From Clostridia bacterium (lineage in GTDB: Bacteria; Bacillota; Clostridia; Acetivibrionales; JAFADI01): a DNA stretch of 64,000 nt. The notes beneath the pieces were generated by a model, which saw only the letters and a list, made by a program, of their open reading frames with translations, ran no database searches and was not told the origin of the DNA. Location of the stretch: positions 47,835-111,834 of the forward strand of contig JAOACY010000104.1 of assembly GCA_026417615.1 (NCBI GenBank). The letters are read 5' to 3'. How positions within the stretch are numbered: position 1 is the stretch's first letter; every line of letters begins with the position of its first letter. Shown in pieces: positions 42,681 through 55,377 of the stretch. The position numbers and the translations under genes were made by a program.

Positions 42681-42863
42681 ATGCAAAATTTTAGGGGTAA
42701 AAACTCAAAGGACATTGAAGCTGCGAAAGAAACTGTGATAATTAATGTTAAATCACCTGAGCTTTACTTCAGCAGAATTAACCCTGAGCTTGATAAGAGT
42801 GTTTCAGCCCAGCAGATAAAAGATGAGGAATTTGAAGGGGAAATGGAGAAAAGAAAGCGATAA
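42681..42863 (+). CDS. Short hypothetical protein
   Basis: AAAGGAG SD then ATG, MQNFRGKNSKDIEAAKETV...; inside ORF 42591-42863. Confidence 0.55.
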   Translation: MQNFRGKNSKDIEAAKETVIINVKSPELYFSRINPELDKSVSAQQIKDEEFEGEMEKRKR

Positions 42864-42890
42864 AAAGGAGTTCAATTGAACTCCTTTTAT
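42864..42890. terminator. Palindromic terminator at left element boundary
   Basis: AAAAGGAGTTCAATTGAACTCCTTTT. Confidence 0.8.
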
Positions 42891-44338
42891 GGTGGAGTGG
42901 ATAAGTCTAAATCCGAAACAGTTATAGTGTTGTTATCACCGCTGTAATTGTAGGTTATAACAACCTTATCCTCATACACGAACACAGCATTTATAAATGT
43001 GTCTATGATTTGTTGGCAATATTTTTCATCATCAATAGAGCCGCCTTTGAAGCTGGAGAGGAAAAATATAATTTGCTCTTTCGTTATGAGTTTTTGGGAG
43101 ATATTTTCTTTAGCAATCTCAATTTCAAGTTGTTGTTTCTGCTCCTCCAGCTCAACAAGACGTTTTTTCGTGCTTTCGGTAATAATGCCCTGTTCAATAG
43201 CGGTAACAACATTCTTTACTGAACGCTCAACCTCAATCAATGTACTCTGCAAGTATTTTAGAGTGTTATTATTGGACAACTCACGCTCTTGCACTTCTAT
43301 AGCCTTTCCAGCTATATACTCTATTACATCATCTTTCAATATTTCATTGATTGTATGAAGCACTACAAGCCGCTCAATCCAATCTTTTTTAATATTAGAT
43401 TTATTGCAAGCCTTTTCTTTTTTTCTCTTAGTACATTTGTAATAGTGATATTTACCGCCATGCCTACCAGTACCACTCTCACCAACCATATTAGAGCCGC
43501 ACTCACCGCAAAATAATTTTGTTGATAACATATAATTTACATTTGCTTTAGCTCTTGCAGGAGCTTTTTTATTTTTGTCCATCTTCTCACCTACACTATA
43601 GAATAATTCTTTATCAATAATAGCGGGTACGCCATCGGGAATGGCTATATCTCCAGACTTGTAAACGCCAATATATTTTTCATTCCTCAATATGGTATGT
43701 AGGCTATTTTTATTAAAAGAAACGCCACGAGAAGTTTTTAGCCCTTGTCTATTCAATGTATCGCAAATTTGAGTTACTGTCTTACCTTCATTATACATTT
43801 TATATATCTGAATGACTATAGGAGCGGTTTGCTCGTCAATTATAAAATGCAGATCCGCATCAACTTTATAGCCGAGCGGCAAGTTACCACCTGTAGCCTT
43901 ACATTTTAAGGCATTTTCCCTCATTCCTCGCTTTATTTTCAAAGACAATTCGGCACTATAATACTCTGCCATGCCCTCTAACATACTCTCCAGAATAATA
44001 CTCTCTGGTGTACCGTTCAAGTTTTCCATTGCTGAAAGGACTTTTACGCCATTCTTTTTTAGCTTCTGCTTATTAACGGCACTATCATAGCGGTTACGAG
44101 AGAAGCGATCCAGACGATACACAATAACCGCTTCAAATTGCTTTTTAGCACTATCAATAAGCATTTGTTGAAATGCTGGGCGGTTATCTGTTTTGCCACT
44201 TATTGCTCTATCTATATAAGTATCAATTATAGTTATTTCGTTAGCTTCTGCAAACGAATAGCATTCCCTTAATTGCCCTTCTATACTCTGCTCTGTTTGC
44301 CTATCGCTGGAGTATCGGGCATATATTACCGCCCTCAT
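42887..44338 (-). CDS. Large serine recombinase / integrase
   Basis: AVIYARYSSDRQTEQSIEGQL, YRLDRFSRNRYDSA, zinc ribbon CGECGSN...C..C, C-terminal coiled coil. Confidence 0.96.
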   Translation of the reverse strand: MRAVIYARYSSDRQTEQSIEGQLRECYSFAEANEITIIDTYIDRAISGKTDNRPAFQQMLIDSAKKQFEAVIVYRLDRFSRNRYDSAVNKQKLKKNGVKVLSAMENLNGTPESIILESMLEGMAEYYSAELSLKIKRGMRENALKCKATGGNLPLGYKVDADLHFIIDEQTAPIVIQIYKMYNEGKTVTQICDTLNRQGLKTSRGVSFNKNSLHTILRNEKYIGVYKSGDIAIPDGVPAIIDKELFYSVGEKMDKNKKAPARAKANVNYMLSTKLFCGECGSNMVGESGTGRHGGKYHYYKCTKRKKEKACNKSNIKKDWIERLVVLHTINEILKDDVIEYIAGKAIEVQERELSNNNTLKYLQSTLIEVERSVKNVVTAIEQGIITESTKKRLVELEEQKQQLEIEIAKENISQKLITKEQIIFFLSSFKGGSIDDEKYCQQIIDTFINAVFVYEDKVVITYNYSGDNNTITVSDLDLSTPP

Positions 44339-44550
44339 TTCTGATCGCCTTTCTGTATGTCAACTTTTTTAGTAAGAAAATCAAAAGTTTTTAAAACGGC
44401 AACTTGATCCTTTCTATCTAAAGAACGAAAAGCCAGCTCCATTTTGCATTTATCAGAATTTAAAGCATTACTTATACTCTCACGTTGAGCTTGCGTTATA
44501 TCTTTATTAAGCAAAGACATTATAAGGAGGTTAGTAATTCGACTGTTCAT
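44335..44550 (-). CDS. Hypothetical 71 aa protein
   Basis: Overlaps integrase start and repressor stop by 4 bp (operon-like). Confidence 0.6.
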   Translation of the reverse strand: MNSRITNLLIMSLLNKDITQAQRESISNALNSDKCKMELAFRSLDRKDQVAVLKTFDFLTKKVDIQKGDQK

Positions 44551-45068
44551 AATTTATCACCTTTTTCAATATTTTCAGTATACAGGGGGAGCATAAGCAA
44601 CTCATTAAGATAATCCCTTAGCCTATTAAAACCTCTATCATTCAATTTCATAGCATCAAATAAAATTTTAATAATATCACTATCAATTACGCCAGCTAAT
44701 ACAAGCGATAAACGTATTGTTTGTAACTGTCCTTCATCAAATGAGAATTTATCTTCAAAAAATTTCATAACCTCATTTGCAAAATCATCACCAAATTGCA
44801 AAGCGAGCCTTTCTTCATTGCTCAAAGCATTATTATCCATAGAAGCAAAATTAATCATATCATTTAAGGTATAGTCACCAATTAAATCACTTGGAGTAAT
44901 GCCAAGTGCATCACATAGCAGTTTAATAGTGTCAATGTCGGGCTGATTAGTATTGTTTTCCCAATTACTAATTGTAGAGTTTGCAACCCCAATCATTTTC
45001 GCTAATTCCTTTTGCTTTATACCTCTATTTTTTCTAACTTCTTTTAGCCTATCACCAAAGGTTTTCAT
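44547..45068 (-). CDS. XRE/CI-type repressor
   Basis: FGDRLKEVRKNRGIKQKELAKMIGVANSTISNWENNTNQPDIDTI HTH. Confidence 0.92.
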   Translation of the reverse strand: MKTFGDRLKEVRKNRGIKQKELAKMIGVANSTISNWENNTNQPDIDTIKLLCDALGITPSDLIGDYTLNDMINFASMDNNALSNEERLALQFGDDFANEVMKFFEDKFSFDEGQLQTIRLSLVLAGVIDSDIIKILFDAMKLNDRGFNRLRDYLNELLMLPLYTENIEKGDKL

Positions 45069-45105
45069 ACTCAACACACTCCTATGATTTTGATTATAAT
45101 ATAAA

Positions 45106-45224
45106 ATTCCGAATTTGTAAATTAAAAAAAACAGAAAATCGGAATTTATTTGCAAAATCATATTGACATTTCCGAATGTCGGAACTATAATGAAAATAAA
45201 TACAGCAAGTCGGAATTTTAGACA
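45106..45224. promoter_or_regulatory. Divergent lysogeny-type control region
   Basis: TTGACA-17 bp-TATAAT at 45163-45191 with palindrome TTCCGAATGTCGGAA in the spacer; further TCGGAAT half-sites at ~45107, 45138, 45213. Confidence 0.8.
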
Positions 45225-45260
45225 GCAAAATTTATTAATTTGCAAAGGAGGTTACTTTTT

Positions 45261-45476
45261 ATGCGAGTTGTTGACAAAATTAAAATTTACCTTGTAAAAG
45301 AGCATATTTCACAAAAAGAACTATCTGAAAAAACAGGTATTCCACAACCTAAATTAAGTATGTCACTTAATGGAACACGAAAATTAACGGTTGATGAATT
45401 TGAAACAATTGTAAATGCATTAAGCATTAGTGCTAATGAGTTTATCGAAGAAAAAATTTTGGAGAAAGGAGCTTAG
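45261..45476 (+). CDS. Cro-like XRE regulator
   Basis: HISQKELSEKTGIPQPKLSMSLNGTRKLTVDEFE HTH; ATG at 45261 after AAGGAGG. Confidence 0.88.
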   Translation: MRVVDKIKIYLVKEHISQKELSEKTGIPQPKLSMSLNGTRKLTVDEFETIVNALSISANEFIEEKILEKGA

Positions 45477-45479
45477 AGC

Positions 45480-45908
45480 ATGGATAACAATTATTTAAAG
45501 CTTAATAACCAGCTTACCAATCTAAAGGCAGATCTTCAAAAGCTTATTGATACAGGAAGTACGAAAAGTTTTGAAGATAAAATTGCATATGGCTATATCG
45601 AAAGCCTTTTTGATAGCGTTGATATGGCTATCTACAAAATTGAGCATTTTTCAAAGCCCACTATTGAAGGTACTTTGCACGAAAACGCAAGCGGCAAATT
45701 TGATTTACTGGACAGGAGCGGCAAGTATATTACTTATTTCTCTTGCGGATCGCCTATTGAGTGCTTTATAGAAGAGGACGGCGAGAAACAATGGATTGCT
45801 GGGCGTGTTGAGCATACAACAAAGAACGGCAATTCGGGCTATTACTTCTATGGCGGCGATAAGCCATTTTTACACAACGGAATGAGAGCCAGAATAAGAA
45901 AAGACTAA
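45480..45908 (+). CDS. DUF5348-like protein
   Basis: C-terminal GKFDLLDRSGKYITYFSCGSPIECFI...YYFYGGDKPFLHNGMRARIR. Confidence 0.65.
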   Translation: MDNNYLKLNNQLTNLKADLQKLIDTGSTKSFEDKIAYGYIESLFDSVDMAIYKIEHFSKPTIEGTLHENASGKFDLLDRSGKYITYFSCGSPIECFIEEDGEKQWIAGRVEHTTKNGNSGYYFYGGDKPFLHNGMRARIRKD

Positions 45909-45945
45909 CCCCAAACTATATTTTATAACGAAAGGAAGCGGAAAT

Positions 45946-46317
45946 ATGAATTACAAAGAGATTTGCACAAACTTAGAGGAAACATTTTTAAAAAGCGGCT
46001 ACAAGATGGTCTACAAGAGGTTTAATGATGACTCTATCAATTGCTTAGGTACATTAATGCTACTTAATGAAGGTACTGAAAAAGAAGAAAAAAGGCTCAT
46101 TATCAATCTGAATACAAGCTATGAAGAAAGGCTACAGGTATTAATTGCTTTAATACTCAAATTAGAAGCAAGTACACCATTTGAAACTAAATGTTTCCAC
46201 ATAACAAAGGAATTCAACTTAAAGCCAAGCTATATTAAAAATTTAACCGATATTGCTATGAAAATTATACTTGCAACGCATGGTAAAGATTTGAAAGCAT
46301 TTGCAAAGGCAGTTTAG
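45946..46317 (+). CDS. Hypothetical accessory protein
   Basis: 123 aa ORF with SD; ends ...KAFAKAV. Confidence 0.75.
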   Translation: MNYKEICTNLEETFLKSGYKMVYKRFNDDSINCLGTLMLLNEGTEKEEKRLIINLNTSYEERLQVLIALILKLEASTPFETKCFHITKEFNLKPSYIKNLTDIAMKIILATHGKDLKAFAKAV

Positions 46318-46353
46318 CCCACAACCACAAACAAATTGAAAGGAAGCGATATT

Positions 46354-46758
46354 ATGAGAAGATATAAAGATCCTATCAGAAGGTACAAAAAAGAAGAATT
46401 TGAGGATGCTTATACAAGGCTTAAAAACTCAATAATAGAAGTTGGTGGAAATTACAGGGTTAAAGAAGAAATCATTGAGAAAAAAGGTTATACAGGAGCG
46501 TTAATTGTTGTTGGTGAGGATAAAAAGGACAGGCTTATTGGATTAATGGTTGATCCAACGGCAAGAGCCGAAGAAAAATTCTATACTCTTCTCCGCCTTA
46601 TACTTGTTGCTCAATTCAACTTATCTTTACAGGAAAATAAGGCTTATTATGTAAATCCGTATGATGCAATTATTGGCAATATTAGAACATTTACAGCCAT
46701 TATTACAGAAACCATTATGAATGGCGGAGAAATACCAGCCTTTGCAAAAGCGGTTTAG
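46354..46758 (+). CDS. Hypothetical accessory protein
   Basis: ORF 46336-46758, likely start MRRYKD; ends ...PAFAKAV like its neighbour. Confidence 0.75.
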   Translation: MRRYKDPIRRYKKEEFEDAYTRLKNSIIEVGGNYRVKEEIIEKKGYTGALIVVGEDKKDRLIGLMVDPTARAEEKFYTLLRLILVAQFNLSLQENKAYYVNPYDAIIGNIRTFTAIITETIMNGGEIPAFAKAV

Positions 46759-46774
46759 CGGAAAGAGGGATTAT

Positions 46775-46963
46775 ATGAGTAATACTATTGCGATAAACAC
46801 AAAAAGCATACCAAACGCCGTTATGGACAAGCATTGTCTTACTCTATTGAGTTGCGTTGCTAAATTCTTTGAAGATCCGAAGAATAACGCCGCTTACATA
46901 GAATGGCACAAGGAAAAGTACGGCAGAATGCCAGAGGAAGCTAAGAAATGCATAAAAAAATAG
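46775..46963 (+). CDS. Hypothetical 62 aa protein
   Basis: MSNTIAINTKSIPNAVMDKHCLTLL... in ORF 46721-46963. Confidence 0.65.
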   Translation: MSNTIAINTKSIPNAVMDKHCLTLLSCVAKFFEDPKNNAAYIEWHKEKYGRMPEEAKKCIKK

Positions 46964-47152
46964 TGATTACTCCAAGTTCGCCAACCCGATAATCACTAAT
47001 TTCTACAAACACTTGCAAAAGTGCTTACAAATTCACTTATAGTATAGCATAAGTGCGGTACTTTTGCAATTTATTTTGCGAGCCTAAGTGCTTATTATCC
47101 TCGTAAAAAACATTAACTTATGGGATATAGATACCCATAGGTAAAAAATGTT
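46961..47152. other. Three consecutive hairpins, candidate replication origin
   Basis: TAGTGATTA/TAATCACTA (46961-46998), TTGCAAAAGT/ACTTTTGCAA enclosing CACTTAT/ATAAGTG (47013-47069), AACATT..TATGGG/CCCATA..AATGTT (47110-47152), directly before rep. Confidence 0.55.
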
Positions 47153-47216
47153 AATACAAGAGGATGGAAAAAGCTCTTTACTCTATTAAATATTATTGAC
47201 AGGAGGAAAAGAAATT

Positions 47217-48002
47217 ATGCCTTACTATGAGAAAAAAATAATAAGTGGAGATCTGATTGAGATAGAAAGATATTTTGCAACAAAAACAGGAAATAAAATG
47301 CCGAGGAGTGTTGGGCTGAATGAAAGTAGCAAGGGGCAAGAGGATTTAAATAATAAAAATGCACAGAAGAGGTTAATTCGATTGCTGAATGCAAACTTTA
47401 GCGGCAAAGCTGGAGATTTATTTGTAACCCTAACCTATAAAGATCCTGTTGAAGAGGAAGCGGCAAAAAGAGAAGTAACAAATTTCATTAGGAGGGTACG
47501 CCGCCACAGAAATAAAAAAGGGCTACCAGAAATGAAATACATAATTATTACTGAAAACCAAGGGCGTTGGCATCACCATATTATTATGAATGCTATGCCA
47601 ATGGAAGATATAACAGAATTATGGGGGCATGGCAGGACAACTATATCAAAAGTTGACCAAGCATATAACTTTGAGGATTTAGGGCGTTATCTGATTAAAG
47701 GCGAAAAAGCTTCTAAGAATACCCCAGATATTGAGAATGCAAAAGAGAAGCGAAAAAAGCATTCTCGCAGATGGATAAGTAGCCGTAACCTAACACAACC
47801 AATTATTGAGATAAAGGAAATTAAGAAAGGCATAACAAAGACACCGCCGAAAGCTCCAGAGGGTTATTACCTCCTTCCCGACTGGAGAATAGGAACGGAT
47901 GTACAAGGCAATTTATATCAATCCTTTAAATGTGTGAAGCTGGAGGAAAAGCCAGTTAACCATAAAAGCAAAGCAAGGAGGAGGAAAGAAAATGTATTAT
48001 AG
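47217..48002 (+). CDS. Rolling-circle replication initiator (HUH-like Rep)
   Basis: FVTLTYKD motif 1, GRWHHHIIMN His cluster motif 2, YNFEDLGRYLIKGE motif 3. Confidence 0.82.
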   Translation: MPYYEKKIISGDLIEIERYFATKTGNKMPRSVGLNESSKGQEDLNNKNAQKRLIRLLNANFSGKAGDLFVTLTYKDPVEEEAAKREVTNFIRRVRRHRNKKGLPEMKYIIITENQGRWHHHIIMNAMPMEDITELWGHGRTTISKVDQAYNFEDLGRYLIKGEKASKNTPDIENAKEKRKKHSRRWISSRNLTQPIIEIKEIKKGITKTPPKAPEGYYLLPDWRIGTDVQGNLYQSFKCVKLEEKPVNHKSKARRRKENVL

Positions 48003-48138
48003 GCAATGTGATATATGCGGATCACACCTTGATCCAAACGAAAAATGCGATTGTCAAAGTAACAACCAAAGGAGCAATCAAGCAATAAAGGAAAAGCAAG
48101 CTCCAGAGAGAAAGGCGGTGCAAAATGAGAAAAAGTAA
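47992..48138 (+). CDS. Small Cys-rich protein (48 aa)
   Basis: Not in ORF track; MYYRQCDICGSHLDPNEKCDCQSNNQRSNQAIKEKQAPERKAVQNEKK*; SD GGAGGA. Confidence 0.6.
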   Translation: MYYRQCDICGSHLDPNEKCDCQSNNQRSNQAIKEKQAPERKAVQNEKK

Positions 48139-48164
48139 AATAAAAATTAGTGAGGGGGTTAAGC

Positions 48165-49415
48165 ATGGCGAGCATATTTTCAAGGATATTTAAGAAAAAG
48201 CCCTCTCCAGAGGGTATTACAACAAGTGCGGAAGTCATAGGAAGCGGCGGGAATGTCTTTACAGCATGGAGCGGCGATGCATACGCAAATGATATTTACC
48301 GAGGAGCGGTTGACAGCATAGCGAGAAACGGTGCGAAGCTAAAAGGCTCTCATGTTATCAAATATCAAGAGCATAACAGGGTTGAAGGTGATTGCAAGCT
48401 CAATAGAGTATTGCAGATTGAGCCTAACCCTTATATGAGTGCGTTTGATATGCTTTACAAGCTCATTACACATTATTTTCTTTACAACAATGCGTTTGCG
48501 TTTATTCAGAAAGATAACAAGGGGCAGTTATTAGGCATATACCCTCTTAACCCTCTTCATGTTGATTTTATGAGTGATGAAAACGCAAATTTGTATTGCA
48601 ATTTTTTATTTACAGGCGGTAAAGAAGTATTATTGCCGTATACCGACATTATCCATTTACGCCGCAATTTCAATGATAATGATTTATTGGGGGATCTGAA
48701 TACTGCCCTCTCTCCTACTCTACAGCTTGCACACACTCAAAACGAGGGAATTATTCAAGCAATAAAAAGCAGTGCGAATATTAGAGGGATATTAAAGCGT
48801 AACCAGCTATCATCAGTGGATAAGCTCAAAGAAATTCAAGAAAATTTTATAAAAGATTATCTCAACATTGCTAATAATGGCGGCATTGCGGTTATAGATC
48901 AAGGAGCGGAATATATACCGATAGACAACAAGCCCTATGTTATTGACGAAAAGCAATTACAGACAGTCAAAACGAAAATATATGATTATTTAGGCATTTC
49001 GGAAAAAATCGTAAATAGCAGTTATACCGAGGATGAATGGGCGGCGTTTTATGAAAGCACTATTGAGCCTTTAGCGGTGCAATTCAGCCTTGAATTTACA
49101 AGAAAGCTCTTTAATGATAGAGAGCGGGCGTTTGGTAACTCTATTATGTTTGAGAGCGGGCGTTTGCAATTTAGTAGCAATGCAACAAAAATAAATCTAA
49201 TAGCTCAAATTATGCCGTATGGCTTACTTACAATAAATCAAGCATTAGAGATACTTAATCTTCCTGCTGTAAACGGCGGCGATATTCGATTACAAACGCT
49301 CAATGTAGTTAATGCAGATAAAGCAGAGCAATACCAGCTTAATAATAAAACAATGTCCGAAACGGACACCGCAAAAGCGAATAATAAAAGTGTGTCCGAA
49401 AATAGCACAAAATAA
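48165..49415 (+). CDS. Phage portal protein (HK97-like)
   Basis: MASIFSRIFKKKP...ANDIYRGAVDSIARNGAKLKG, LNPLHVDF, LGISEKIVNSSYTEDEWAAFYESTIEPL. Confidence 0.95.
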   Translation: MASIFSRIFKKKPSPEGITTSAEVIGSGGNVFTAWSGDAYANDIYRGAVDSIARNGAKLKGSHVIKYQEHNRVEGDCKLNRVLQIEPNPYMSAFDMLYKLITHYFLYNNAFAFIQKDNKGQLLGIYPLNPLHVDFMSDENANLYCNFLFTGGKEVLLPYTDIIHLRRNFNDNDLLGDLNTALSPTLQLAHTQNEGIIQAIKSSANIRGILKRNQLSSVDKLKEIQENFIKDYLNIANNGGIAVIDQGAEYIPIDNKPYVIDEKQLQTVKTKIYDYLGISEKIVNSSYTEDEWAAFYESTIEPLAVQFSLEFTRKLFNDRERAFGNSIMFESGRLQFSSNATKINLIAQIMPYGLLTINQALEILNLPAVNGGDIRLQTLNVVNADKAEQYQLNNKTMSETDTAKANNKSVSENSTK

Positions 49416-49435
49416 TGATTTTGGAGGTGCATAGC

Positions 49436-50002
49436 ATGAAAGAATTAAGAATTTGCGAAATAAGAGCAGAAGCGGCGGCAGGTGCGGAAGCTCTTAAATT
49501 AGAGGGTATGCCGATTGTGTACGATCAGCCTACCACTATAAACGATCCAAAAGGGCAGTTTATAGAAATAATCAGATCTGGAGCATTAGACGGAGCGGAT
49601 CTTACTGACTGCCGCCTACTCTATAACCACGATCTAAACAAAGTACCTTTAGCAAGAACGCCTAAAACAATGCAATTTACCAAGAGTGCGGCAGGACTTA
49701 AAATGATTGCATCATTGCCAGATACACCAGAAGCCAGAAGCGTACATACGGCAGTATTGCGGGGCGACTTATCGGGAATGAGTTTTGCGTTTAAAGTGCC
49801 AAAAGGCGGCGACAGGTACGATCCAAAGACCAACACAAGAGAAATCTTGAAAATTGAGAAGGTTTATGAGGTTAGTGTTGTGCCTTTTCCAGCATACCCC
49901 CAAACAAGCGTTGAAGCAAGAGCCACAATGCAACCGCAAAGAAACCAAGCAAAAAAGCAAGCCATCATAATGGCAAATAAAATTTTAATGAAAGAGGTAT
50001 AA
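49436..50002 (+). CDS. HK97 family prohead protease
   Basis: LEGMPIVYDQPTTI, LLYNHDLNKVPLAR, GDLSGMSFAFKVP, VSVVPFPAYPQTSVEAR. Confidence 0.95.
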   Translation: MKELRICEIRAEAAAGAEALKLEGMPIVYDQPTTINDPKGQFIEIIRSGALDGADLTDCRLLYNHDLNKVPLARTPKTMQFTKSAAGLKMIASLPDTPEARSVHTAVLRGDLSGMSFAFKVPKGGDRYDPKTNTREILKIEKVYEVSVVPFPAYPQTSVEARATMQPQRNQAKKQAIIMANKILMKEV

Positions 50003-50006
50003 AAAT

Positions 50007-51254
50007 ATGAAATTTAAAACTATTGGAGAAGCTTTTAACCACTACAGAACCGCAACATTAGAGGAAATTGAAAAAAGAGCGGGAGAAATCAAAGGATCTA
50101 TTGAAACAGATGCCGAAGCGGATATTATAGCACTCAATATTGAATTGAGCGGATTGAAACAGGCAAAGGAAAATCTTTTAAGCAAAGAACCTTCACCAGC
50201 TCCAGGACAAAGATCGGCATTTAACCCAATTACAGGCGGCGACATTAAAACTAATCTCTCACAGGAAGCGGCAGAGGGTGATGTATTTGCAAGCCAAGAG
50301 TATAGAAGTGCATTTTTCAAAAGCCTTTTAGGGCAGAAGCTCACAGAAAACGAGAATAAAGCTTTTACCAGAGCAATGGAAATTGTAGAAGCTGAAAAAA
50401 GAGCGGATGCATTCAATACCGTTACGAGTGCCGCCGCCGTACTGCCTACCGCAACACTCAATGAAGTAATTAAGAAAGCCAGAACAATGGGCGGGCTAAT
50501 ATCTGCTTGCCGTAACTTCAATATACCAACCAAAATTAGCGTACCTGTAGGCACTCCAAGCAATAAAGCAAGTTGGCATACCGAAGGAGCGGCGGTTGAA
50601 AGTGAAACGAATACCGTTGCAAGTGTAAGCTTTAGCGGCTATGAAATTTTGAAAGTATTCTCTATTTCTGCCGCCGCTAAGAAAATGAGCATTACAGCAT
50701 TTGAAGCCTACATTGTAGAGGAGCTAAAAAATACAGTTCTGGAGTGTATCGCTGATGCAATCGTTAACGGCACAGGTGAAGCACAAGGCACAGGCATTTT
50801 AGAGGGTATTACATGGACACCAGACGTTAACCATTTCACATTTCATAAGACAAACGGCTTGAAGTATGCCGATTGCGTGAAGATTGTTGCCGCTTTAAAG
50901 CGTGGTTATGCCAACGGTGCAAAGTGGGCTATGAATAACTCTACTCTCTATACTCTTTTCTATGGGCTTGTTGATACTACAGGCAGACCGATTTTTATAA
51001 CAGATCCTAAAGCCGAAAATATCGGAAAAATATTAGGATTTGAAGTTATTGTAGATGATAACCTTGCAAATGAGGTTATTTTGTTCGGTAACTTTAATTA
51101 CATGGGCTACAATATCCCAGAAGGAGTTATTATTGAAGTGTCAAGGGAGAGTAGCTTTAAAAGCGGCTTGATTGACTACAGGGCAATGGCTGTAGCTGAT
51201 TGTAAACCGATTGTAGAGGAAGCTTTTATTAAGCTTACAAGAGCCACAGTGTAA
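50007..51254 (+). CDS. HK97-like major capsid protein with N-terminal scaffold region
   Basis: FNTVTSAAAVLPTATLNEVIKKARTMGGLISACRNFNIPTKISVPVGT...; C-terminal VADCKPIVEEAFIKLTRA. Confidence 0.95.
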   Translation: MKFKTIGEAFNHYRTATLEEIEKRAGEIKGSIETDAEADIIALNIELSGLKQAKENLLSKEPSPAPGQRSAFNPITGGDIKTNLSQEAAEGDVFASQEYRSAFFKSLLGQKLTENENKAFTRAMEIVEAEKRADAFNTVTSAAAVLPTATLNEVIKKARTMGGLISACRNFNIPTKISVPVGTPSNKASWHTEGAAVESETNTVASVSFSGYEILKVFSISAAAKKMSITAFEAYIVEELKNTVLECIADAIVNGTGEAQGTGILEGITWTPDVNHFTFHKTNGLKYADCVKIVAALKRGYANGAKWAMNNSTLYTLFYGLVDTTGRPIFITDPKAENIGKILGFEVIVDDNLANEVILFGNFNYMGYNIPEGVIIEVSRESSFKSGLIDYRAMAVADCKPIVEEAFIKLTRATV

Positions 51255-51266
51255 AGGTGTGATTAA

Positions 51267-51545
51267 ATGATACTATCACTTGATGAAGCAAGAGAAATAT
51301 TAAGGATTGACGGCACAGACAACGACAATATTATAACGTCATTGGTTGAAGCTATACCAGATTACATTACACTTACAACAGGGATTAAGCCCGAAGAAAT
51401 GAGCGGCATTCCTCTTGTAAAGACGGTAGCAAAGTTTATATTGCAATTCTGGTATAACGCTGAACAATCAGACGGCGACAGGCTACAACGGACAATAGAC
51501 AGCCTGTTAAAGACATTATCACTTATGGCGAGTAGGAGCGTGTAA
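51267..51545 (+). CDS. Head-tail connector (gp6-like)
   Basis: MILSLDEAREILRIDGTDNDNIITSLVEAIPDYITLTTGI. Confidence 0.88.
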   Translation: MILSLDEAREILRIDGTDNDNIITSLVEAIPDYITLTTGIKPEEMSGIPLVKTVAKFILQFWYNAEQSDGDRLQRTIDSLLKTLSLMASRSV

Positions 51546-51548
51546 GAT

Positions 51549-52301
51549 ATGGCTAAGGACTATGCAAGATCGTTTTATGATAGTAGTACATGGAAGAAAA
51601 CCCAAGCACTCTATTTAAGCAGTCAAAACTATATATGCGAAGATTGCGGCGGCGTTGCTTGCATAGTCCACCATATCAAGCACATAACGCCAGACAATAT
51701 TAACGATCCCGATATAACATTAAATTGGGATAACTTAAAGGCGGTATGTACTGAATGCCATGCGATAGAGCATATGGGAAAGGATGCAAGGCTTAACGGC
51801 ATTTCGTTTGATGAAGAGGGAAATGTTATCAAGCAACCAAATGTATATCTTATTTGCGGAAGCCCAGCAAGCGGCAAGACGGCGTATGTCAACAGGAATA
51901 AAACAAATAGAGATCTTGTTATAGATTTAGATTTGATTTGTGCGGCTTTAATGGGTGAAGAAAATAATAATTACTTAAATAACGAGCCAATATTAAGCGT
52001 TGCAATTGAAGTTCGTACCCTTCTCTATAGTATCGTAAAAACAAGGCGTGGTAATTGGGATAAAGCCTATATCATATCAACAATATCCAATATTTTAGAG
52101 CAAAAGGCATTAGCAAACGAGCTTAACGCCGAAATTGTTATTATAAATACACCTTTAGAGGAGTGTATAAGACGGCTACATAAAGACCAACAGCGAGCAG
52201 GAAAAATTAAAATGTTAGAGGAGCTAATAAGCAAATGGCATGAAAACTATAATAAATCGCTTGAATTTTCAAAGCATCCCCCCTATTCCATCACAGATTG
52301 A
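51549..52301 (+). CDS. HNH endonuclease fused to P-loop kinase-like domain
   Basis: CEDCGG..VHHIKHITPDNINDPDITLNWDNLKAVCTECHAIEH then YLICGSPASGKTAYVNRNK. Confidence 0.88.
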   Translation: MAKDYARSFYDSSTWKKTQALYLSSQNYICEDCGGVACIVHHIKHITPDNINDPDITLNWDNLKAVCTECHAIEHMGKDARLNGISFDEEGNVIKQPNVYLICGSPASGKTAYVNRNKTNRDLVIDLDLICAALMGEENNNYLNNEPILSVAIEVRTLLYSIVKTRRGNWDKAYIISTISNILEQKALANELNAEIVIINTPLEECIRRLHKDQQRAGKIKMLEELISKWHENYNKSLEFSKHPPYSITD

Positions 52302-52378
52302 GAGGGGGGCGACACCGTAGGGCGAGGTTTTCCGTACCCCTCCATGAGTTTTCGCATAAGGGGAGGGTTAAAAATTGA
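52278..52378. other. Candidate cos/packaging region
   Basis: G/C-rich inverted repeats CCCCCCT/AGGGGGG and CCCCT/AGGGG flanking GACACCGTAGGGCGAGGTTTTCCGTA between HNH and TerS. Confidence 0.4.
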
Positions 52379-52398
52379 AGGATATGAGGTGATTTACT

Positions 52399-52752
52399 TT
52401 GACAGTTGCCAAAGATAAACAAAACTTGCAGAACATACGAAAACTAAAAAAACTATTAAGGCTAATTCCAGAGGATCGAAAGGCAATAGGCGAAAAGCTT
52501 GTTGAAGAAATCTCTTTTATGTCTGAAACCCTTATGGAGTTGAAAAAGACCGTTTCAGAGAAAGGCGTTGTAGATCTTTTTGAGCAAGGAAAGCAAAAGT
52601 TTATGAGGGAAAGCCCCGCATTGAAAGCATACAATACAACGATCCAACGTTACAGCCTTTTATATAGACAGCTTACCGATCTATTACCCAAGCCAGAGCC
52701 GAGCGACAAGGCAAAAGATGAATTGCTGGAGCATTTACAAGGGAAGGGCTAA
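52399..52752 (+). CDS. Phage terminase small subunit (P27-like)
   Basis: Position before TerL; ESPALKAYNTTIQRYSLLYRQLTDLLPK. Confidence 0.85.
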   Translation: MTVAKDKQNLQNIRKLKKLLRLIPEDRKAIGEKLVEEISFMSETLMELKKTVSEKGVVDLFEQGKQKFMRESPALKAYNTTIQRYSLLYRQLTDLLPKPEPSDKAKDELLEHLQGKG

Positions 52753-52755
52753 CGA

Positions 52756-54399
52756 TTGAATTATCTTTTAGAATACTGGAAAGAGATAGAGGGCGGTAAA
52801 TGTGTTGTATCGAAGAGGGTTAAAAAACAATATGAGAAGCTTATAGATAACATTGTTAATCCTAAAGACAAATTTATATTTGATGAAAAAAGAGCGGAAG
52901 ATCCAATAATTTTTATTGAAAAGTTTTGCAAGCATAGTAAAGGCGAATGGGCGGGAAAGCCTGTTAAGCTGGAATTGTTTCAAAAGGCGTTTATATCTGC
53001 TCTTTTTGGCTTCATAAACAAAGATACAGGATTAAGACAATACCGAGAAGCTATGTTTTATGTAGCAAGGAAAAACGGTAAAAGTACAATGCTTTCGGGA
53101 ATTGCTCTATATATGCTGATTGCCGATAATGAAATGGGATCAGAAGTCTACAGCACTGCAACCAAGAAAGACCAAGCGAAGCTAATATTTGATGAAACGC
53201 ATAACATGATTAAACAAAGCCCTTGCTTACGGAAGCATATAAAGAAGCGGAAAACAGATATATACTTCCCCCTCACCCTCTCCAAGTTCCAAGCATTGGG
53301 AAAGAATAGCGACACCTTAGACGGCTTAAATGCTCATTGCGTTATTATTGATGAATTACATGGAATTAAAGACCGTAACCTATACGAAGTTATGAAACAG
53401 TCGCAGAGTGCAAGGCGGCAACCATTACTAATAATGATAACAACGGCGGGAACGGTTAGAGAGTGTATTTTTGATGATATGTATTCCTATGCTTGCAATA
53501 TAGTTGACGGAAATTTTATAGATAACAGCTTTTTACCTATCCTTTACGAATTAGATAATCGGGAGGAGTGGACATATCCAGAAGCATGGCAGAAAGCTAA
53601 CCCAGCTTTAGGAACAATTAAGAAGCTGGACGATATGAGAAGTAAAATTAGCAGAGCCGAGAATAGCCCCAATGATTTAAACGGAATATTGGTAAAGGAT
53701 TTTAATATAAGAGATACCATAAATACAGCATGGTTAACCCTTGATGATATTATAAACGAGGAAACATTTGATTTATCGCAATTTTGTGATTATTACGCTA
53801 TTGGGGGAGCGGATCTTTCAATTACAAATGATTTAACGTGTGCCACTCTGCTAATGATGGATAAAGCAACGCAAAAGAGGTATGTAACCCAAATGTATTG
53901 GCTACCCAAAGAGAATTTTGAGAAGCGGGTTAAAATAGACAAGATCCCCTATGACAAATGGCACGAAAGAGGGCTATTAAGGCTATGTAATGGAAATACA
54001 ATTAACTACGGCGATATTACAGCATGGTTTATTGAAATGGCTAACCAATATAAGATATTCCCAGCGTGGATATATTACGATAGTTACAGTGCTAAATATT
54101 GGGTTGAGGAAATGGAAAACAACGGTTTTAAAATGGTTAGGTGCATCCAAGGAGCTAAAACCCTCTCCTTACCTCTTCAAATGATGGGAGCGGATTTGCA
54201 AGCCAAAAGAATTAACTATAACAATAACCCGATCCTTAAATGGTGCTTGACTAATACAGGCGTTTACACAGACCGAAACGGAAACATAGTACCGATTAAA
54301 AACCAAGCCGCCAAGCAAAGAATTGACGGCACAGCGAGTATGTTAGATGCTTATGTAGGACTATATGAGCATTATAACGAATATTTAGAAGCTTTATAA
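52756..54399 (+). CDS. Phage terminase large subunit
   Basis: FYVARKNGKSTMLSGIALY Walker A, CVIIDELHG Walker B, nuclease YAIGGADLSITNDLT. Confidence 0.97.
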   Translation: MNYLLEYWKEIEGGKCVVSKRVKKQYEKLIDNIVNPKDKFIFDEKRAEDPIIFIEKFCKHSKGEWAGKPVKLELFQKAFISALFGFINKDTGLRQYREAMFYVARKNGKSTMLSGIALYMLIADNEMGSEVYSTATKKDQAKLIFDETHNMIKQSPCLRKHIKKRKTDIYFPLTLSKFQALGKNSDTLDGLNAHCVIIDELHGIKDRNLYEVMKQSQSARRQPLLIMITTAGTVRECIFDDMYSYACNIVDGNFIDNSFLPILYELDNREEWTYPEAWQKANPALGTIKKLDDMRSKISRAENSPNDLNGILVKDFNIRDTINTAWLTLDDIINEETFDLSQFCDYYAIGGADLSITNDLTCATLLMMDKATQKRYVTQMYWLPKENFEKRVKIDKIPYDKWHERGLLRLCNGNTINYGDITAWFIEMANQYKIFPAWIYYDSYSAKYWVEEMENNGFKMVRCIQGAKTLSLPLQMMGADLQAKRINYNNNPILKWCLTNTGVYTDRNGNIVPIKNQAAKQRIDGTASMLDAYVGLYEHYNEYLEAL

Positions 54400-54414
54400 A
54401 GGGGGCTAATGCAA

Positions 54415-54759
54415 ATGAAGCTAAAAGACAAGAAAATCAAGATCTATTACCATGAAGAGGGAGTTAATGAGAATGGCTTTCCAGTAGATCAATGGCGGCT
54501 ACTCCATGAGGGTACATTATGGGCTTATTACCGCCAATTATCTGGAAGAGAATTTTTTGCCGCCGCTACTGTAAACCAGACAGAGGAAGTAACTTTTCTA
54601 ATTAACTGGAGAAATGATCTAAATACCGCTATGCTCATTGATTACAAAGGCAAACTATACGACATAACCCGCATTGATGATTTTGAGGGCTATAAAAAAG
54701 AATTGCAGATATATTGTAAATTGTCTGCTACCCAAGAAATTGAAATTGCGGAGGAATAG
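54415..54759 (+). CDS. Head-tail adaptor / head closure protein
   Basis: Short protein after TerL: LHEGTLWAYYRQLSGREFFAAATVNQTEEVTFLINWRNDL...YDITRIDDFE. Confidence 0.85.
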   Translation: MKLKDKKIKIYYHEEGVNENGFPVDQWRLLHEGTLWAYYRQLSGREFFAAATVNQTEEVTFLINWRNDLNTAMLIDYKGKLYDITRIDDFEGYKKELQIYCKLSATQEIEIAEE

Positions 54760-54764
54760 GCAAA

Positions 54765-55205
54765 GTGATAGATTGGTTAGAAGTCGCCATTGAGGATTTA
54801 AAAAACTATAGAGATATGATAGAAGAGCAACAGGACTTAGCGGATCGCTTAGAGGAGCTTGAATATAAATATCAGTCTGTAGCCAGTAGCCCAACCGAAA
54901 ATACAAGAGTGCAAGGCGGCAAAATGAGTAGAGAAGATTTTCTAATCAATAATATTACGGAGCGGGAGCGGCTAAAATGTGAGCTTGCGGCAAATAAAAA
55001 GTTAATAGCCATTACTGAAAGAGTTATATTAACCCTTCCAGAAGAGGAAAGAATAATACTCCAGTACATTTATATTGACAAAAGAAAAAAAGCCATACAG
55101 GCTTTAATTGATGAATTGAGCGTGGAGCAATCCCAAATATACCGCATGAAGGACAAGGCAATAATGAGCTTCACTTGTGCTATGTACGGAGTGCGAGAAT
55201 ATTAA
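54765..55205 (+). CDS. RinA/DUF1492-like phage transcriptional regulator
   Basis: VILTLPEEERIILQYIYIDKRKKAIQALIDELSVEQSQIYRMKDKAI sigma4-like C-terminus. Confidence 0.8.
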   Translation: MIDWLEVAIEDLKNYRDMIEEQQDLADRLEELEYKYQSVASSPTENTRVQGGKMSREDFLINNITERERLKCELAANKKLIAITERVILTLPEEERIILQYIYIDKRKKAIQALIDELSVEQSQIYRMKDKAIMSFTCAMYGVREY

Positions 55206-55242
55206 TAAACCGCAATAAGGCATTACACCTTGTTGCGGTTTA
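55206..55242 (+). terminator. Terminator of element late operon
   Basis: TAAACCGCAATAAGG-CATTACA-CCTTGTTGCGGTTTA. Confidence 0.85.
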
Positions 55243-55300
55243 TATTGATTATCAACCCGAACACATTATGCATTATAAAAATGTTCGGATTAGCTTGTTT

Positions 55301-55377
55301 TGGTGGGCCTTCAGGGACTCGAACCCCGGACCAACCGGTTATGAGCCGGTTGCTCTAACCAACTGAGCTAAAGGCCC
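55301..55377 (-). tRNA. tRNA with CAU anticodon (Met, or Ile2)
   Basis: GGGCCTTTAGCTCAG...CTCATAA...AAGGCCC-A-CCA on minus strand. Confidence 0.93.

Follow-up and report, generated by a model that had tools for sequence, protein, structure and literature searches.

What kind of mobile element has settled against the 3′ end of a tRNA gene in a Clostridia bacterium, and how does it recognize such a site? This question is raised by a stretch of 64,000 nucleotides (contig JAOACY010000104.1, positions 47,835 to 111,834), which is called the window in the following and to which all coordinates refer unless a related locus (L with a number) is named. The element spans 42890 to 55306, with 12,411 bp between matched cores. 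It is very probably a phage satellite of the type of the capsid-forming phage-inducible chromosomal islands (cf-PICIs), which makes its own head, would borrow the tail of a helper phage and carries an integrase that probably reads the T-loop of its target. The head and packaging genes that support this assignment are the following.

48165..49415, plus strand: portal (PF04860, E 1e-54; TIGR01537)
49415..50002, plus strand: S78 prohead protease (PF04586, TIGR01543)
50007..51254, plus strand: HK97 major capsid protein (PF05065, TIGR01554)
51267..51545, plus strand: gp6-like head-tail connector (PF05135, TIGR01560)
51549..52301, plus strand: HNH endonuclease fused to a P-loop (AAA_33) domain
52399..52752, plus strand: small terminase TerS, assigned by position and by 96 homologues directly upstream of terL
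52756..54399, plus strand: large terminase TerL (PF03354, PF20441)
54409..54759, plus strand: gp16-like head-closure or head-tail adaptor protein (PF05521, TIGR01563, PHROG 25)

TerS has no Pfam or NCBIfam match above the cut-off. Among solved structures, the capsid protein has no match and the portal matches only 8cez/8fql, weakly. The head genes form the second part of a rightward block that closes with a RinA/ArpU-like regulator; its early part consists of Cro, a DUF5348 protein, two small open reading frames (ORFs) without assigned function, a 61-aa ORF and an HUH-type Rep. The leftward block contains the serine integrase, a 71-aa ORF and a CI-like repressor. All reading frames are intact, none being broken, and the host flanks carry trmK and nif3 on the left and tRNA-Met, tRNA-Asn, rpoD and dnaG on the right.

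The original prediction had listed these genes from integrase to regulator, and all of them are indeed present, open and in the predicted positions according to Pfam, NCBIfam and PHROG. The predicted absence of tail, lysis, helicase and primase genes was borne out as well: with every ORF of the window accounted for (Pfam, PHROG), no tail, baseplate, holin, endolysin, lysis, helicase or primase gene was found in the element. Its ends proved exact, a TGGTGG core (CCACCA on the minus strand) being present at 42890-42895 and at 55301-55306, while the tRNA at the right end had been missed: the latter hexamer lies within the 3′ end of a tRNA-Met gene. The description of an element with almost no intergenic space leaves out two gaps, one of about 250 bp ahead of rep (46964-47216) and one of about 100 bp ahead of terS.

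In the form quoted in PMC10690885 and PMC10803314, the definition of cf-PICIs is based on gene content and does not include a primase-replicase. By this quoted definition, the element resembles cf-PICIs in having its own capsid, protease, portal and head-tail connectors, its own TerS (by position and homologues), TerL and HNH protein, its own integrase and regulators, no tail or lysis genes, a specific integration site and a size near 14 kb, within the range of 12-14 kb. In addition, it is a unit that recurs across hosts and sites and not a single deletion. It departs from most TerL relatives in lacking the Prirep-type primase-replicase, in the place of which it has an HUH Rep. As far as the quoted gene-content definition goes, the element can be filed as a variant of cf-PICI, the putative T-loop-reading integrase being its more novel part. 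The Streptomyces satellites MulchRoom and MiniFlayer likewise encode their own capsid and packaging genes and have a borrowed or absent tail; by their description, they differ in not being cf-PICI homologues, in being without obvious replicases and in having virulent helpers (PMC10690885).

A TerL search found 257 stretches of viral contigs, the best 80 of which were kept, and 33 loci in sequenced genomes. Within this sample, about 110 Bacillota loci share the terminase, mostly at 65-82% identity, in hosts including Cohnella, Niallia, Cytobacillus, Priestia, Alicyclobacillus, Acetobacterium, Oscillospiraceae and Lachnospiraceae. The order portal-protease-capsid-connector-HNH-TerS-TerL-adaptor is common to nearly all of them (~100 loci in many genera). 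Eight of the records, 13.0-14.3 kb in length, have redundant termini, as circles should, two of these (L039 and L122) apparently being one sequence from two collections. In the complete circle L121, the checked ORFs encode a primase/helicase, ParA, a tyrosine recombinase, an Arc-like repressor and proteins without assignment, and no tail family. Two satellite-sized sisters are complete and lie at other tRNA genes (L012, 13.8 kb; L112, about 13.3 kb). The recurrent 12-13 kb unit that the original prediction called for is thus found as the same gene order at ~100 loci, as complete 13-14-kb circles and as sisters at different tRNAs. Its claim of a distinct satellite lineage is supported in the same way, the nearest TerL relatives being satellite-sized and of the same order. 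Moreover, the combination of serine integrase and Rep, which had been called unusual, is a minority configuration by profile hidden Markov model (HMM) typing. Beyond that prediction, the present analysis adds the very large Bacillota family and the mechanism of attachment to tRNA ends.

According to the same typing, most relatives have a tyrosine integrase and/or a Prirep-type (VapE/NrS-1-type) primase-helicase, and ParA is encoded in about 20. Here, the window element differs by its serine integrase, HUH Rep and HNH-P-loop fusion. The pairing of HUH Rep with a serine integrase is found in the window, L002, L012, L043 and L112, and L027 has an HUH Rep on a short contig carrying no integrase. 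The HNH-P-loop fusion occurs in 5/5 serine integrase/HUH elements, most other relatives having a short HNH protein of about 75-150 aa. A tree built from the portal, protease, capsid and TerL proteins (71 taxa, 1,537 columns) unites the window, L043, L112 and L012 in one clade with support 1.0 and places L002 and L027 elsewhere. The satellite type can be described as one that has exchanged the integration and replication modules customary in cf-PICIs, with the head module as the stable core of a Bacillota-wide family.

Alternatively, the element could be a clostridial siphophage stripped of its tail and lysis genes. Tailed phages do possess homologous TerL, portal and capsid proteins, and the tailed prophage L130 additionally resembles the window in its serine integrase (51% identity) and HUH Rep (34%). 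A Rep of PF23343 type, at 29-37% identity, is shared with L130, Terrisporobacter phage TPDSL_ph2 and Butyrivibrio phage Arawn, which differ from the element in their larger genomes. However, TerL identity to isolated phages reaches 54% at most, and in the phage-like loci L128, L130 and L131 TerL lies upstream of the portal. L130 shows the canonical order TerL-portal-capsid-tail, with portal, capsid, neck and tail in line, the capsid being followed by a major tail protein, a tape measure protein and Dit. As TerL precedes the portal in the examined tailed phages, simple deletion does not yield the order of the window, which is common to about 100 loci in many genera; besides, the window genes are all open and both ends are intact. 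No relative with the same genes plus a tail module turned up, the tailed phages being more distant and of another order. Likewise, the ORFs examined past the head genes of L112, L106, L123 and the circular L121 revealed no tail module, apart from one weak match to a tail family over 46 residues in L106. On the grounds of gene order, satellite-sized relatives of the same order and the distance of phage TerL proteins, descent by deletion was rejected and is considered very improbable. The head module is thus that of a satellite family, and tailed clostridial phages carry the integrase-Rep module as well.

How the satellite attaches to its host can be read from the two junctions, where the following features are found.

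42863..42889, no strand assigned: displaced host terminator hairpin AAAAGGAGTTC-AATT-GAACTCCTTTT, formerly downstream of tRNA-Met, with an equal layout at empty sites
42890..42895, minus strand: integrase-side core CCACCA, the last two integrase codons before host DNA, identical to the hexamer at the tRNA-Met 3′ end
42890..42917, minus strand: half-site of the phage attachment site (attP) within the integrase gene, TTCG...CCACCA, 28 nt
42890..44338, minus strand: large serine integrase (PF00239, PF07508, PF13408), 483 aa when integrated, its C-terminus crossing the junction and its stop coming from host DNA
55223..55300, minus strand: would-be C-terminal 25 integrase codons and stop, KQANPNIFIMHNVFGLIININRNKV, joined to the integrase only in the excised circle
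55283..55292, minus strand: second attP arm, TAATCCGAAC
55301..55377, minus strand: tRNA-Met, the gene serving as bacterial attachment site (attB), with 23 nt from the T-loop TTCGA to CCA (55301-55323)

Nineteen relatives carrying this tRNA pair were fetched, and in 17 of them a script could read the tRNA-Met end. In 16/17, rpoD and/or trmK and nif3 are adjacent, and the CCACCA leads into DNA that is not part of the element, usually a terminator-like hairpin, which is the layout of the empty site. In the window, a hairpin with a T-run follows directly after the left core, as is predicted for a displaced tRNA terminator. Such hairpins after the core occur in 19/25 cases, versus 4.6% of control stretches. 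Other members of the integrase family use other targets. L112, whose integrase is about 70% identical, is inserted at tRNA-Ala; L012 lies at a third tRNA, with CCGCCA as its integrase-side core by the 28-nt rule; and L002 has the integrase-side signature, with TTCT at the TTCR position, 21 nt before CCA. More distant integrases are found at three further targets: tRNA-Leu in four cases, tRNA-Arg in two elements that share one tail, and the transfer-messenger RNA (tmRNA) gene; these elements measure 6.8 to 35 kb. In some family members, the integrase end directly abuts tRNA-Met, tRNA-Asn or tmRNA. The genome of L112 also carries a second serine integrase of this family (L147 7957-9606), about 50% identical, that abuts the tmRNA 3′ end. 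Integration into tRNA genes by serine recombinases has been described as rare, the known cases being phiRSM1 at tRNA-Ser and the Mycobacterium actinomycete integrative and conjugative elements (AICEs) at tRNA-Leu (PMC3218068). These resemble the window element in having a serine recombinase at a tRNA gene. By their description, they differ from the clostridial family, which covers tRNA-Met, Ala, Arg, Leu and tmRNA under one signature of T-loop and 5-bp shift.

This signature is defined by spacing. The motif TTC[AG] lies exactly 21 nt before CCA in 25/34 related integrase 3′ ends, and other spacings occur 0-1 times, except N18 with seven. On the side of the tRNA, TTCR of the T-loop lies 16 nt before CCA in 29/29 distinct CCA-ending tRNAs of the fetched DNA, and tmRNA fits as well. 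The distance from TTCR to the end of CCA is therefore 23 nt in attB and 28 nt in attP, a difference of 5 nt. In the case of LI integrase, attB has been shown to have its zinc-ribbon motif 5 bp nearer the centre than attP (PMC3783163), which is the arrangement found here. From this pattern, we infer that the T-loop provides the motif by which the zinc ribbon recognizes the attB half-site. The arm TAATCCGAAC is positioned 8 nt past the core in almost every tRNA-side junction that could be resolved, giving a roughly symmetric attP of 45 bp.

As to the integrase itself, its start MRAVIYARYS contains the catalytic Arg8 and Ser10, as in Bxb1 (PMC12884075), and Resolvase, Recombinase and zinc-ribbon domains are all present. 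Its C-terminus depends on the state of the element. When the integrase gene is joined across the core to the DNA on the tRNA side, the frame is open in 11/11 translated junctions (nine plus L112 and L012), of which the two at tRNA-Arg share one tail and are not independent. The tails have NPN followed by (V)FG in common, as in KQANPNIFIMHNVFGLIININRNKV of the window, LQSNPNIFVTLDVFGLVVQIER of L112 and NHDNPNLVPVGDGFGLLLYID of L182, with L193 agreeing only loosely. Past the DNA arm, mismatches per codon position amount to 0.45/0.24/0.62 in eight sequences, and 22% of the differing codons are synonymous in the tail frame versus 4-6% in the other two frames. The tail is thus probably translated from the circle, giving a protein of 508 aa, and lost on integration, which leaves 483 aa. 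Because the integrase gene runs across attP, integration would sever this conserved tail. A precedent for the exchange of an integrase C-terminus exists in the rumA-type streptococcal integrative and conjugative elements, whose serine integrase genes also contain one att repeat and have their C-terminus changed by integration (PMC4701971). They target a protein gene, in contrast to the tRNA end used by the window element, where the lost tail is conserved.

Taken together, it is reasonably likely that a clostridial family of serine integrases, found in satellites and other elements, uses the universal T-loop motif TTCR with the 3′ CCA as attB half-site at many tRNA and tmRNA genes, and that the position of the gene across attP, by which integration removes the conserved tail, creates a switch between the circular and the integrated form. 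Site choice would then be predictable from tRNA anatomy, in a class of enzymes that has been described as rarely targeting tRNAs (PMC3218068), and the loss of the tail would be a testable one-way switch. Both could serve the genetics of Clostridia. The TTCR match could also be a by-product of a shared core under ordinary site choice, with the conserved sequence past attP being a DNA-level arm or hairpin instead of a protein tail, and the arm AATCCGAAC with its inverted copy is indeed conserved as DNA. This is unlikely, as TTCR holds a constant position at a large distance from the core and is shifted by exactly 5 nt between the two sites, the codon constraint of coding type persists past the arm, and L012, with its core in another codon phase, nonetheless yields NPN...FG in frame.

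In the life cycle suggested by the gene families, CI and Cro would maintain the integrated state until induction by a tailed helper phage, when the serine integrase would excise a 12.4-kb circle. The circle would be replicated by the HUH Rep through a rolling-circle mechanism and the late genes switched on by the RinA-like protein. An HK97-type head would be built and filled with the satellite's own TerS, TerL and HNH protein, after which the gp6-like and gp16-like connectors would close the head and dock the tail of the helper. In a new cell, the integrase would recombine attP with the 3′ end of the tRNA gene, the T-loop acting as the attB recognition motif; the tRNA stays intact because the crossover lies in the CCACCA core. 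As integration splits the gene from its tail, the two forms would make different integrases.

Several observations weigh against these readings. Elsewhere in the host assembly, a metagenome-assembled genome (MAG) that is 84% complete, no second TerL of the window's family (TerL_nuclease), no PF10145 tape measure and no PHROG 33 Dit was found, these being the only families searched. The motif survey covers one integrase family picked by similarity. Below about 47% identity, many integrases miss the motif or the tRNA partner; most loci in this range are without a tRNA partner, some lack the motif and others stop before the element end. The spacing N18, 3 nt shorter, in 7/34 integrase ends probably reflects other CCA triplets near the core. 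In addition, L002 and L027 fall outside the clade, which implies either repeated gain of the HUH Rep or reshuffling of modules. The missing helper, and the fact that the element is a single copy in one MAG, would also fit a former cf-PICI that has degraded and is now fixed in its host. Given that every gene is intact, core and arms of the attachment site are complete and sisters lie at other tRNAs in other genomes, this is improbable, and a mobile satellite remains the preferred explanation.

The replication module comprises two features.

46964..47216, no strand assigned: non-coding region with inverted repeats upstream of rep, a candidate replication origin
47217..48002, plus strand: HUH-type Rep of the rolling-circle initiator family ORF2/G2P (PF23343, E 5e-17)

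In the Rep alignment, HxH and a Tyr are conserved, in the motifs WHHHII and RYLIK, which correspond to the HUH motif and the catalytic Tyr. Family and motifs together point to rolling-circle replication. The window Rep is 43% identical to that of L043, versus 24-27% to those of L012 and L112. It is thus nearer to L043, which shows that the early module varies within the clade as well.

The remaining features of the element are regulators and accessory ORFs.

44335..44550, minus strand: 71-aa ORF, no known family
44547..45068, minus strand: CI-like repressor (HTH_3, E 7e-19)
45093..45191, both strands: divergent promoter-like pair, TTTACA-17-TATAAT on minus and TTGACA-17-TATAAT (12/12) on plus
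45258..45476, plus strand: Cro-like regulator (HTH_3)
45480..45908, plus strand: DUF5348 protein (PF17295)
45946..46317, plus strand: 123-aa accessory ORF, no family above cut-off
46354..46758, plus strand: 134-aa accessory ORF, no family
46778..46963, plus strand: 61-aa ORF with a homologue in L112
54765..55205, plus strand: RinA/ArpU-like transcription regulator (PF07374, DUF1492; PHROG 36)
55205..55243, plus strand: terminator hairpin at the end of the head operon

The promoter-like sites are consensus matches only, the one on the plus strand (45163-45191) agreeing perfectly with the sigma-70 consensus. The RinA/ArpU-like gene scores below the NCBIfam cut-offs for ArpU and RinA. At its position, a sigma-70-like factor ends the head operon in some relatives (L002 11249-11884, L043 11486-12358, L051 5243-5944). 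No family could be assigned to the 123-, 134-, 61- and 71-aa ORFs in Pfam and PHROG profile searches, and no defence gene known so far was found among the accessory ORFs, which gave generic HNH matches only. The 123-aa and 134-aa ORFs share the C-terminal motif AFAKAV (46292-46314 and 46733-46755; repeat family D3) and are possibly tandem paralogues.

Within the head module, a kinase-like P-loop is fused to the packaging HNH protein in the window (51549-52301), L002, L012, L034, L041, L043 and L112. The sisters L112 (4422-4859) and L012 (11676-12023) possess additional neck genes, of tail completion/Neck1 and tail terminator-like type, that the window is without; these may reflect different helper tails. 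Lastly, some terminally redundant relatives with ParA and a primase-helicase, either without integrase or with a short tyrosine recombinase only, appear to be plasmid-like cf-PICIs. The candidates are L122 (a Bacillus ectoiniformans contig of 14,255 bp with a 95-bp end repeat), L063, L065, L070, L073, L121 and L125.

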